DNA of 64,000 bases from contig SCUZ01000075.1 of assembly GCA_004322535.1 (NCBI GenBank), positions 1-64,000 of the forward strand, in the 5' to 3' direction. The DNA comes from Rugosibacter sp. (GTDB taxonomy: Bacteria > Pseudomonadota > Gammaproteobacteria > Burkholderiales > Rhodocyclaceae). Below are positions 41,125 to 44,195 of this stretch, piece after piece (position 1 is the stretch's first letter; every line of letters begins with the position of its first letter). A model generated the notes under the pieces. The model had not been told where the DNA came from. It made no database searches and saw nothing but the letters and a program-made list of their open reading frames with translations. A program made the position numbers and the translations under genes.

Positions 41125-41197
41125 GGGTGCTTAGCTCAGTTGGTAGAGCGTCGCCCTTACAAGGCGAATGTCGGCGGTTCGAACCCGTCAGCACCCA
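41125..41197 (+). tRNA. tRNA-Val (anticodon UAC), integration site
   Basis: Acceptor GGGTGCT/AGCACCC, anticodon stem TCGCC/GGCGA with loop CTTACAA giving UAC. After the discriminator A the sequence is CCG, not CCA, so the encoded CCA end has been altered by the integrated element; CCA must be completed by the nucleotidyltransferase. An integrase gene follows 165 nt on. Confidence 0.93.
41176..41195 (+). repeat. attL core in tRNA-Val 3' end
   Basis: GGTTCGAACCCGTCAGCACC, the T-arm and acceptor end of the tRNA. It recurs with one mismatch at 44176-44195, about 3.0 kb away in the same orientation. Confidence 0.85.
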
Positions 41198-41225
41198 CCG
41201 GTTTATAGTCCAAAGTAGTCCAAAG

Positions 41226-41267
41226 AAGGCCGGAAATCCTAGTAGTAGCAAGGTTTCTGGCCTTTTT
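41226..41267 (+). terminator. terminator between tRNA-Val and int
   Basis: AAGGCCGGAAATCC and GGTTTCTGGCCTT form an imperfect stem followed by a T-run. It would stop tRNA-Val transcription before int and was brought in by the element. Confidence 0.72.
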
Positions 41268-41304
41268 TACATCCAGGGTAGTCCGATTCGGGGTATTGCA
41301 ATCC

Positions 41305-41363
41305 GACGGTAAATGACGGTAACCTTGACGGTAGTTAGTTACCGTCAACAGGAGTTACCGTCA
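41305..41363 (+). promoter_or_regulatory. operator-like array of five GACGGTAA/TTACCGTC boxes before int
   Basis: GACGGTA occurs in direct orientation at 41305, 41315 and 41326, and inverted (TTACCGTC) at 41339 and 41355. The last box overlaps the spacing between the int ribosome binding site (GGAG) and its ATG at 41363. Likely binding sites for AlpA or for the integrase arm domain. Confidence 0.6.
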
Positions 41364-42577
41364 TGGCGCTTACCGATACAGCGATTAGAAACGCAAAGCC
41401 GCAAGTTAAATCCATCAAGCTATCCGATGCCGATGGCCTCTATTTGCTACTTAATCCGAACCGTTCCAAATGGTGGCGGCTTGATTACCGCTTTGAAGGC
41501 AAACGCAAAACGCTCTCGATGGGGGTCTACCCTGATGTGTCGCTCAAACTGGCGCGTGAGAGGTGCAGAGAGGCTCGATCACTTTTGGCTGTTGGCACTG
41601 ATCCAGGAGAGCAGCGCAAAGCCGAGAGACAAGCTAAATCCGAAGCAGGAAGCAATACATTTGAAGCTCTAGCCCGCGAATGGATGGCGACACGCGGCAA
41701 AGAATGGACTGAAAGCTACGCCAGCAAAACCAAATCCGCTTTAGAACGTAATGCTTTTCCCGCCATTGGCAGGAAGCCAATCACTGAAATTACAGCTCCT
41801 GATGTTCTTGCCATGCTGAGAGCAATTGAGAGTCGCGGTATTGTGGATATGGCGCATCGCATTCAACAACATTGCGGCGCAATTTTTCGTTATGCCATTG
41901 CAACGGGGCGGGCGATAAATGATCCAGTACCCAGTCTAAAAGGTGCGTTATCGACTGTCAGACAGGAACACTATGCTGCCTTGACTGATCCCATCGAGTT
42001 TGCCCAGCTGCTGCGCGATATTGAAGGTTACCGAGGCGAGGCAACAACAAAGGCTGCCATGCAACTATTGGCGCTCACTTTTCAGCGTACCAAAGAAGTT
42101 CGGTTTGCCGAATGGGCGCAGTTTGACCTGGAAGCGGGACTCTGGCGTATTCCTGCCGAGATTATGAAAATGCGCGAGGCGCATATCGTGCCGCTCTCTA
42201 CGCAAGCTATCAAAGTTCTTAACCGCATGCAGGCAATCACGGGCGGGGGGCGGCTAGTTCTTCCGTCGTCGACAAGCCGTGAGCGCCCTATTAGCGAAAA
42301 TACCGTGGTTTATGCATTGGCGCGAATGGGCTATAAAGGACGTATGACCGGACATGGTTTTCGGTCTGTCGCATCAACCTTGTTAAATGAACAAGGCTTT
42401 CGTTCTGACCTTATCGAACGCCAGTTAGCCCATTCGGAAAAGAATTCAGTACGAGCTGCATACAACCGCGCAGAGTATCTACCTGAACGCAAAAAGATGA
42501 TGCAGGAATGGGCCAACTATCTTGACAAACTCAAGGTCGGTGCCGAAGTAATATCGTTACGCAGCCAAGCAACTTAA
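41363..42577 (+). CDS. int: tyrosine-type site-specific integrase (P4-like, DUF4102 N-terminus)
   Basis: 404 residues. An N-terminal arm-binding domain of the DUF4102 type (residues about 1-90, LTDTAIRNAKP...KTLSMGVYPDVSLKLAR) is followed by a core-binding domain and the catalytic domain. Catalytic residues are Arg242 (TFQRTKEV), His331 and Arg334 (HGFR), His357 (LAHSEKNSVRAAYN) and Tyr367. All are present, so it should be active. GGAG lies 8 nt before ATG 41363. Confidence 0.95.
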   Translation: MALTDTAIRNAKPQVKSIKLSDADGLYLLLNPNRSKWWRLDYRFEGKRKTLSMGVYPDVSLKLARERCREARSLLAVGTDPGEQRKAERQAKSEAGSNTFEALAREWMATRGKEWTESYASKTKSALERNAFPAIGRKPITEITAPDVLAMLRAIESRGIVDMAHRIQQHCGAIFRYAIATGRAINDPVPSLKGALSTVRQEHYAALTDPIEFAQLLRDIEGYRGEATTKAAMQLLALTFQRTKEVRFAEWAQFDLEAGLWRIPAEIMKMREAHIVPLSTQAIKVLNRMQAITGGGRLVLPSSTSRERPISENTVVYALARMGYKGRMTGHGFRSVASTLLNEQGFRSDLIERQLAHSEKNSVRAAYNRAEYLPERKKMMQEWANYLDKLKVGAEVISLRSQAT

Positions 42578-42581
42578 GCGG

Positions 42582-42899
42582 CTAGATATCATTATTTAGA
42601 AATGTCACTGTAGTGCGTGAAAATCTGTCTTGGTAGTACAGCATTATCTCGACTTTGCTATTCGGCCATCTCCACCTCCAGATTCTCCGTTCCTCATTTG
42701 CAAATGAAGCGGGGCCGTACACTTTCAATAGTGCTGATTTTAGTAGCTCAAGATTTGGCTGACCATCAAACCACGCGCTACCACTGTAGAACCTCTGATA
42801 GGTATCCAATATGACTGGGAGGACATCGAAGAACTGGTGTTCTTCCGCCAACAAGAGATCGTACCTCGCACGCTCGAAGAAGCTCTGAAACTGTGCCAT
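42582..42899 (-). CDS. unknown protein, sole non-mobility gene of the element
   Basis: 105 residues from ATG 42899 (136 if the GTG at 42992 is used). It begins MAQFQSFFERARYDLLLAEEHQFFD and ends with an aromatic and beta-rich stretch (WRWRWPNSKVEIMLYY...TVTFLNNDI). I recognise no family. It is convergent with int (4-nt gap) and divergent from rep. As the only gene without an integration or replication role it may be cargo, for example defence or host interference; that is a guess from position. Confidence 0.6.
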   Translation of the reverse strand: MAQFQSFFERARYDLLLAEEHQFFDVLPVILDTYQRFYSGSAWFDGQPNLELLKSALLKVYGPASFANEERRIWRWRWPNSKVEIMLYYQDRFSRTTVTFLNNDI

Positions 42900-42978
42900 G
42901 AAGACTTTTTCTTTCCGCCTCGATACGTTCGACTGAGAGGGAAGGTGGTCATGAACCTGTTCTCGGAGGAAGACGACA

Positions 42979-43833
42979 ATGTCTGACTCCACGGATCAAG
43001 CATCCCAATTAACGAAATCGGGCGTGCAAGTAGCTCCGCCCGCCCCACGCGCGCAGCGCGGGGCCGGACGGGGCGGCGCAGCCGCCTATAGACTTGACAA
43101 AAGGACATATCTCGACAAAGAACAGGGAAGATATAAGATCATTCTGAGAGACTATGGCGGCGGTTTATGCGAAGTCGGCTGGTCATTCGTCCCCAACCTC
43201 TTACCCACTAAAGCAGGTCGGGGAAATTCGGAACAACGACAGCAGCACGAAGACCGTGCCGTGCGTCGCGCCCGTTCCCGGTTGCGCCAGTTAATCCTCT
43301 CGGCGCAAGCTGACCATCTGCTGACCCTGACCTATCGGGAGAACGTCACCGACTACAAGCAAGCCAGCAATGACTTGAGTGCGTTTATTCGCCTTGTCAG
43401 GACATATCTGCCCAAGTGGGTGTTTATCACCGTCCCGGAGCGGCAGAAGCGCGGGGCATGGCATTGGCATCTGGCCGTAGTCGGACGGCAAGACGTTGAT
43501 CTCCTGCGCCGCTGCTGGCGGCATGTCGTGGATGAAGGCAATATCGACGTGCAAAAACCCAGGCGCGGCAAGAATCGGCGCCTGGGCATTGTGGCTTATT
43601 TATCCAAGTACCTGGCCAAGGGATTCGCCGAGAACGACCGAGAACTGAATGGCCATCGCTACCGCGCCTCGCTTGGCATTCAAGTGCCAGGCGAACTCGT
43701 TGAAATTCCCGAACACTTGCGCGGGGAAGTTTCCGCGTATGTATTGGCTCAATTGCGTGAACGGGCGGGACATGTCGGTTTCGTTTGGGTCGATACCCAC
43801 ATCATGGCGGGCTGGGCCTGCTCTTGGGGGTAA
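42979..43833 (+). CDS. HUH-endonuclease rolling-circle replication initiator
   Basis: 284 residues. Motif 1 LLTLTYREN (residues 114-122), the metal-binding HUH motif HWH at 162-164 (GAWHWHLAVVG), and a two-tyrosine motif Tyr207-x3-Tyr211 in AYLSKYLAKG. YxxKYxxK is the arrangement of the phiX174 A / P2 A type replication proteins. The N-terminal 36 residues are Pro/Ala/Gly-rich and probably disordered. GGAGGA lies about 10 nt before the ATG. It should nick an origin on the excised circle; the hairpin at 44093-44129 is one candidate site. Confidence 0.85.
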   Translation: MSDSTDQASQLTKSGVQVAPPAPRAQRGAGRGGAAAYRLDKRTYLDKEQGRYKIILRDYGGGLCEVGWSFVPNLLPTKAGRGNSEQRQQHEDRAVRRARSRLRQLILSAQADHLLTLTYRENVTDYKQASNDLSAFIRLVRTYLPKWVFITVPERQKRGAWHWHLAVVGRQDVDLLRRCWRHVVDEGNIDVQKPRRGKNRRLGIVAYLSKYLAKGFAENDRELNGHRYRASLGIQVPGELVEIPEHLRGEVSAYVLAQLRERAGHVGFVWVDTHIMAGWACSWG

Positions 43834-43836
43834 GCC

Positions 43837-44070
43837 ATGTATTCACTACCTGAAACGGGCTACCTACGCCTTCCACAGATCATCGGCAACGCAAAAGTTA
43901 ATCCGCCGATTCCGGCGCTGATTCCTGTCAGCAAATCGACTTGGTGGGCGGGGGTTAAGTCGGGGCGCTATCCGCAGCCGGTGCGAACGCTCGGAGTGCG
44001 TATTACAGCATGGCGGGTTGAGGATATTCGCAGCCTGATACAATGTGCCGCCTGGCATAATCAAGCCTGA
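43837..44070 (+). CDS. alpA: AlpA-family transcriptional regulator / excisionase
   Basis: 77 residues, 3 nt after rep. GYLRLPQIIG, then PPIPALIPVSKSTWWAGVKSG and a helix ending AWRVEDIRSLI form the winged helix-turn-helix of AlpA proteins, which control integrase expression and excision in P4-like elements. A GGGTAAG overlapping the rep stop acts as ribosome binding site. Likely binds the GACGGTAA boxes before int, which is an inference. Confidence 0.88.
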   Translation: MYSLPETGYLRLPQIIGNAKVNPPIPALIPVSKSTWWAGVKSGRYPQPVRTLGVRITAWRVEDIRSLIQCAAWHNQA

Positions 44071-44092
44071 TGTGATGTAAAATTATCGACAG

Positions 44093-44129
44093 TACAGTTA
44101 TCTTGCCAGTAACTTTGGCGGTAACTGTA
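44093..44129 (+). repeat. inverted repeat near the right end of the element
   Basis: TACAGTTA and TAACTGTA enclose a second pair GCCA/TGGC, so the stretch can fold into a bulged hairpin. It includes GGCGGTAAC, one base off the int-side boxes. Candidate Rep nick site, arm site or operator. Confidence 0.5.
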
Positions 44130-44175
44130 AAGTTCGAATTCTTTAATTTGTGTGTACAAGGGTGTTACGGGCTAT

Positions 44176-44195
44176 GGTTCTAACCCGTCAGCACC
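44176..44195 (+). repeat. attR core
   Basis: GGTTCTAACCCGTCAGCACC, 19 of 20 identical to attL, followed by ATAG instead of CACC. Marks the right boundary of the element. Confidence 0.85.

Follow-up and report, generated by a model that had tools for sequence, protein, structure and literature searches.

A 3.0-kb insert at a tRNA-Val gene of Rugosibacter, a probable minimal integrating rolling-circle plasmid with relatives across Betaproteobacteria

The DNA analysed here, referred to as the window, is a 64,000-nucleotide stretch of one contig of Rugosibacter sp., and between its tRNA-Val gene and ppiD it holds a 3.0-kb insert. This element is probably a minimal integrating rolling-circle plasmid, or mini integrative element, at a probability of roughly 0.78, because the same site is empty in related genomes, relatives of its replication initiator (Rep) stand beside excisionase (Xis) or AlpA genes and integrase genes at other tRNAs, the Rep has the motifs and fold of an HUH initiator, a DNA motif embedded in rep is frozen, and the Rep has been mobile. 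A 20-bp site places the element at the tRNA-Val 3' end. Its P4-type integrase and HUH Rep genes are both intact, and it is one of a family found in Betaproteobacteria.

The host genome (G000, 2.57 Mb) is betaproteobacterial and has lon and tRNA-Val(TAC) to the left of the insert. The two attachment (att) cores at its ends (Table 1) form a 20-bp repeat identical at 19 of 20 positions, and equivalent points in the two are spaced exactly 3,000 bp apart. At up to three mismatches the core has these two matches only in the 64-kb window, where 0.02 would be expected by chance. In four congeners (G001, G002, G006 and G008) lon, tRNA-Val and ppiD follow one another uninterrupted, the homologue of position 41199 joining the homologue of position 44176, in the ppiD leader, directly. 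Because these congeners keep the tRNA running straight into the ppiD leader, the empty sites prove that the insert and its ends are real. An earlier reading of the window from its letters, made without database searches (the sequence-only reading), had described a flanking 20-bp imperfect repeat of the tRNA-Val 3' end, which the repeat search and the empty sites bear out. It had also seen in the insert a minimal integrative element that encodes an integrase and an HUH Rep of its own and is free of capsid, relaxase and conjugation genes; scans with Pfam and PHROGs agree, finding no capsid, terminase, primase, packaging, relaxase or conjugation gene in the element.

Table 1. Features of the element and its integration target (positions in the window)
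Feature	Position	Strand	Evidence
tRNA-Val(TAC), integration target	41125..41199	+	ARAGORN; Rfam RF00005
Left att core GGTTCGAACCCGTCAGCACC, within tRNA 3' end	41176..41195	+	Repeat search; congener empty sites
P4-type tyrosine integrase (int), 404 aa	41363..42577	+	Pfam PF13356, PF22022, PF00589; phrog_1 1.9e-69
Orphan open reading frame (ORF), 136 aa, oriented towards int; may be cargo or no real gene	42582..42992	-	ORF list
HUH rolling-circle replication initiator (Rep), 284 aa	42979..43833	+	PF23343 1.9e-15; phrog_3419 1.9e-53; fold
GC-rich hairpin GGCGGC-GCA-GCCGCC in rep 5' coding region, part of putative double-strand origin	43072..43086	+	Recurs in most relatives, not all
Putative nick region AGACTTGACAAAAGGACATAT; nick predicted at 43096/43097 (CTTG^A)	43090..43110	+	Synonymous-site conservation
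AlpA-like small helix-turn-helix (HTH) protein, 77 aa, probable excisionase/regulator	43837..44070	+	PF05930 E=0.078, below cut-off
Right att core GGTTCTAACCCGTCAGCACC, one mismatch (G to T)	44176..44195	+	Repeat search; empty sites

The Rep is assigned to the HUH proteins mainly because of family models and motifs, its fold scores being weak below the top match. The residues H162-W-H164 and Y207-xxK-Y211-xxK (YxxKYxxK) are invariant across 13 Reps, and the ratio of nonsynonymous to synonymous substitution rates (dN/dS) of ~0.13 against relatives indicates strong purifying selection. An AlphaFold model (predicted local distance difference test, pLDDT, 78; predicted template-modelling score, pTM, 0.73), disordered at residues 1-48 (pLDDT <50), has SIRV1 ORF119 as its top solved match (Z 8.8). 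Nuclease domains of parvovirus, adeno-associated virus and geminivirus follow, intermixed with unrelated ferredoxin-like folds and at scores within the range usual for such unrelated folds. Among viral models the best matches are replication proteins of the ORF2/G2P type. With the HUH motif, the paired tyrosines and the HUH fold all present in sequence and model, the protein is best classed as an HUH initiator of the two-tyrosine (phiX174/pC194-like) group. Run as a profile against PDB sequences, the Rep alignment found no relative, and plasmids and phages offer only distant matches, at <60% identity and covering <60% of the protein. The RepSA family model (PF20199) scored the window Rep at E=0.0017 and 18 bits, below its cut-off of 34. 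The host encodes one more HUH Rep, only distantly related (377 aa, 33% identity; 316-1449 of L015, G000:C20), followed by an anti-sigma/HATPase-like ORF; a tyrosine integrase 3 kb beyond it, near the contig start (4339-5484), may mark a further integrated element of this host.

The 5' part of rep holds a stretch that has changed remarkably little at its silent positions. When 13 Reps, 51-87% identical to the window Rep, were compared codon by codon and scored where residues are identical, synonymous-codon identity reached 0.84-0.95 at Rep residues 31-46, as against 0.3-0.6 over most of the gene and ~0.35 expected; for the putative nick region the value is 0.95, where 0.36 would be expected. 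Since it is silent sites that are frozen, and since AlphaFold models this part of Rep as disordered, selection here acts on the DNA and not on the protein. After the hairpin the family consensus reads AGACTTGA[C/A]AANAGGACA[T/C]AT (window 43090-43110). This motif is single-copy in its own genome at up to two mismatches, and at up to one mismatch it occurs in 4/399 genomes of the order, each time within a full-length rep of the mini-element Rep family; it was not found in IMG/VR, nor outside the carriers among the 399 genomes, the genus having been searched as well. Double-strand origins of the phiX174/pC194 type have CTTGA beside a GC stem. Since CTTGA adjoins a GC stem here in the same manner, the hairpin and motif would together constitute a putative rolling-circle origin of ~40 bp, nicked at CTTG^A. 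The nick site of pSAM2 has likewise been assigned to the pC194 family (PMC3218068).

Run against 84,980 species genomes, the Rep alignment recovered 14 full-length relatives, 13 of them in betaproteobacterial metagenome-assembled genomes (MAGs) and one on a contig labelled Elusimicrobia. A class-wide profile search of 369 genomes, thinly sampled and with a loose first pass, added none of full length. On the Elusimicrobia-binned contig (L058, 5804-7969) a Rep-HTH-Int cassette of the same Rep family reflects either cross-phylum transfer or misbinning. About a dozen relatives have the order Rep-Xis-Int at other tRNAs. Most follow a layout, here termed A, of variable gene, Rep, HTH excisionase and integrase, with the integrase end abutting the 3' end of tRNA-Met (L047, L048, L049), tRNA-Arg (L052, L059, L060, G256/L034), tRNA-His (L053, L054) or tRNA-Phe (L055); the excisionase ORF is not seen in every member (e.g. 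L054). Near-perfect att repeats of 45-66 bp bound elements of 5.8 kb (L047), 6.6 kb (L048), 5.1 kb (L052), 3.7 kb (L054), 6.1 kb (L060) and 5.8 kb (L034). The L055 contig starts exactly in a tRNA-Phe-derived att repeat (1-29), as if excised or alternative forms had broken the assembly. The window's own layout, B, runs tRNA-IntP4-cargo-(U)-Rep-AlpA, U being a gene common in relatives. It recurs in L056 (Nitrotoga, tRNA-Ser) and L057 (Gallionellaceae, tRNA-Thr), in both of which an att repeat was searched for and not found. The sequence-only reading had proposed looking for its gene order at tRNAs of other genomes, and these two loci match it, with the U gene and cargo added; the window element retains no trace of U.

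On the Rep tree the layouts and integrase types interleave with full support, the window lying beside L047 and L056 beside L060. Because layouts A and B interleave in this way, the recombination module has, judging by the tree, been replaced at least twice while the Rep was conserved. Cargo differs between members too: L048 has a dCTP-deaminase-like protein, L057 an alpha/beta-hydrolase-like one and L056 (2382-5052) the candidate anti-phage pair PDC-M71A/B, a kinase and a tetratricopeptide-repeat (TPR) protein. By comparison of its members, the family evidently keeps the Rep and its embedded motif while integrase/excisionase modules and cargo change. The Rep itself has travelled. In G001 it belongs to another element, which is integrated at tRNA-Met and has another integrase; the Reps of G000 and G001 are 90% identical in DNA and differ at 25% of synonymous sites, whereas lon differs at 81%. 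Since the synonymous divergence of rep is so far below that of lon, the gene moved between the two species after their split. Rep exchange and host spread together show that transfer between cells has occurred in the family.

The integrase is recognized by Arm-DNA-bind_3 (7.7e-27) and Phage_integrase (3e-21) and is 41-43% identical to the integrases of L056 and L057. The 77-aa product of the last gene is probably an AlpA-like excisionase or regulator: its resemblance to the L056 AlpA is weak (25% identity over 52 aa, 5e-6 in a two-sequence search), and bona fide AlpA proteins (PF05930) occupy the same position in L056 (5.7e-13) and L057 (3.7e-15). Searches of Pfam, PHROGs, NCBIfam, the genus and the 399 genomes of the order found no relative of the minus-strand ORF, which may be cargo and is not necessarily a gene.

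From these parts a simple cycle can be proposed. The AlpA-like protein would steer the integrase to excise a 3.0-kb circle. Within the rep gene of that circle, Rep would cut next to the GC hairpin, at CTTG^A (~43096/43097). The host replisome would then displace a single strand, and Rep would reclose it, yielding multicopy circles or concatemers; the circle could reintegrate at the tRNA, where the site is directly observed. The sequence-only reading held that the element must borrow transfer functions, which is plausible: passage between cells would need a helper, likeliest a co-resident conjugative apparatus for which Rep would act as relaxase, as in streptococcal integrative and mobilizable elements (IMEs) with initiators of the rolling-circle replication (RCR) type. 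Phage packaging of rolling-circle concatemers would be an alternative vehicle. Two VirB4/TrbE homologues in G000 (G000:C94 15894-16508; G000:C48 18708-19328) are possible conjugative helpers; none was found in the other four carriers tested.

Several observations weigh against a mobile plasmid of this kind. G004 has at the same site a scar of ~0.6 kb, consisting of the int start, the alpA end and attR, and G007 a decayed copy with a broken int and a truncated rep; together with the substitution in attR, these suggest that the window copy may no longer move. Sequence similarity supports the AlpA assignment weakly (PF05930 E=0.078), L052, L053, L054 and L055 have an imperfect hairpin or none, and the nick position is predicted by resemblance to the phiX174/pC194 type. 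Finally, the carriers are known from genome assemblies alone, mostly MAGs, from which excision, replication and transfer have to be deduced. In the decayed copy of G007 (L011 8195-8875), a GDT1-type cation antiporter/transporter gene lies between int and the rep remnant.

The strongest alternative drawn from these observations is that the element is a leftover of a larger island, old, vertically inherited and no longer able to excise. Since decayed copies occupy this site in congeners, the window copy did not arrive recently, and contigs of G003 and G005 that end within the right end of an element likewise speak for an old insertion. The attR mismatch, the diverged AlpA-like protein and the missing U gene would also suit a remnant. 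Yet int, rep and alpA are all full-length and open in G000, Rep is under purifying selection and was exchanged with G001 after the species split, and the relatives, at 3.7-6.6 kb, are nearly as small, so that no much larger parent island is implied. The sequence-only reading had itself allowed for a decayed remnant of a larger island; decay is indeed present in the same-site copies of G004 and G007, but the copy in the window has its three main genes intact, and loss of mobility, although a serious contender, seems the less probable account.

A narrower doubt concerns the origin. The frozen stretch could instead be a regulatory or protein-level signal, such as a repressor site, an antisense RNA target or a binding peptide, and the lack of the hairpin in some members and a nick placed by resemblance leave room for this. 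It is improbable, however, given that the freeze is at synonymous sites within a disordered region and that CTTGA lies next to a GC stem as in known origins.

The sequence-only reading had also suggested a little-described class of satellite. In such a scheme, Int and AlpA would respond to a helper phage that packages Rep-made concatemers, or an inovirus would package the displaced strand. An integrase, AlpA and one replication gene within a few kb, without capsid genes, are also the core of the phage-inducible chromosomal minimalist islands (PICMIs), minimalist phage satellites of Vibrionaceae whose excision AlpA drives and which are packaged as concatemers (PMC10803314). The candidate defence pair of L056 would fit a satellite, as would the fact that the nearest Reps outside the family are those of inoviruses (L012 and L013, with Zot-like genes; MW202882), which share the phrog_3419-like Rep core at roughly 33-52% identity over the catalytic domain. 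However, PICMIs have a primase and a fis site where this family has an HUH Rep and tRNA sites, and no helper phage is known here; with an HUH Rep in place of a primase or P4 alpha-type replication gene, the element does not match a PICMI or P4-like satellite in gene content. An inovirus or inovirus satellite is not supported either, as the element lacks Zot/pI, coat and secretin genes, has its own P4 integrase and AlpA, and carries a Rep whose N-terminus and embedded motif inoviruses do not share. Zot (PF05707) was found in none of five carriers (G000, G001, G138, G166 and G256). A search of IMG/VR, the genus and the order (399 genomes) for a helper phage or inovirus sharing the Rep origin, as the sequence-only reading had advised, found none, and the absence of primase, capsid, terminase and packaging genes also makes a satellite unlikely. 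One genome of the order (G213, contig C1) has five related inovirus-type Reps.

Among known systems, the closest parallels are streptococcal IMEs with RCR-initiator-type relaxases (Rel_PF01719, Rel_PHA00330, MobT; PMC5357655). Both groups join a compact RCR-type protein to an excisionase and a tyrosine integrase, a combination present here albeit with a weak AlpA-like excisionase in the window copy, and both are small, lack a type IV secretion system and swap modules between elements. The window family differs in its Rep (PF23343/phrog_3419), its betaproteobacterial hosts and its lack of TcpA, and the window copy has int at the end opposite alpA; with mobilization only a proposal here, the family does not fall within that group. 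Actinomycete integrative and conjugative elements (AICEs, the pSAM2 group; PMC3218068) share tRNA integration, a two-tyrosine HUH initiator and, with the sister elements, the order rep-xis-int. They differ in having an FtsK-like Tra, a RepSA initiator and actinobacterial hosts, and the family, at 3-6.6 kb, cannot be counted among them: no FtsK/SpoIIIE-type Tra matched among the element ORFs scanned, and the Rep is not RepSA. Cryptic integrated elements of Thaumarchaeota (2.6-98 kb; PMC6563490) include integrase elements of very small size, among them one that has an RCR initiator; they are archaeal, and their proteins are unrelated. The sequence-only reading had placed the element near the lower size limit, but with a 2.6-kb example among the archaeal elements, 3 kb is no record.

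It stands about even whether the broader proposal holds, namely an undescribed betaproteobacterial family of mini-elements in which one HUH Rep, with an origin in its own gene, would serve replication and also, by acting as relaxase or by making concatemers, transfer, with the integrase, excisionase and cargo modules changing around it. No published description of a proteobacterial mini-element family of this kind was found; with subscription journals mostly outside the search, this is weak evidence for novelty and does not prove it. A review of IMEs lists none with its own canonical relaxase in Proteobacteria and places RCR-type relaxases mainly in Firmicutes (PMC5704250). If the proposal is true, the family would be a proteobacterial counterpart of IMEs with RCR-type relaxases. 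Most genomic islands at tRNA sites have no visible transfer machinery. The family reduces the question of how such islands move to two or three genes and an origin of ~40 bp, in which excision, replication and helper dependence are each testable.

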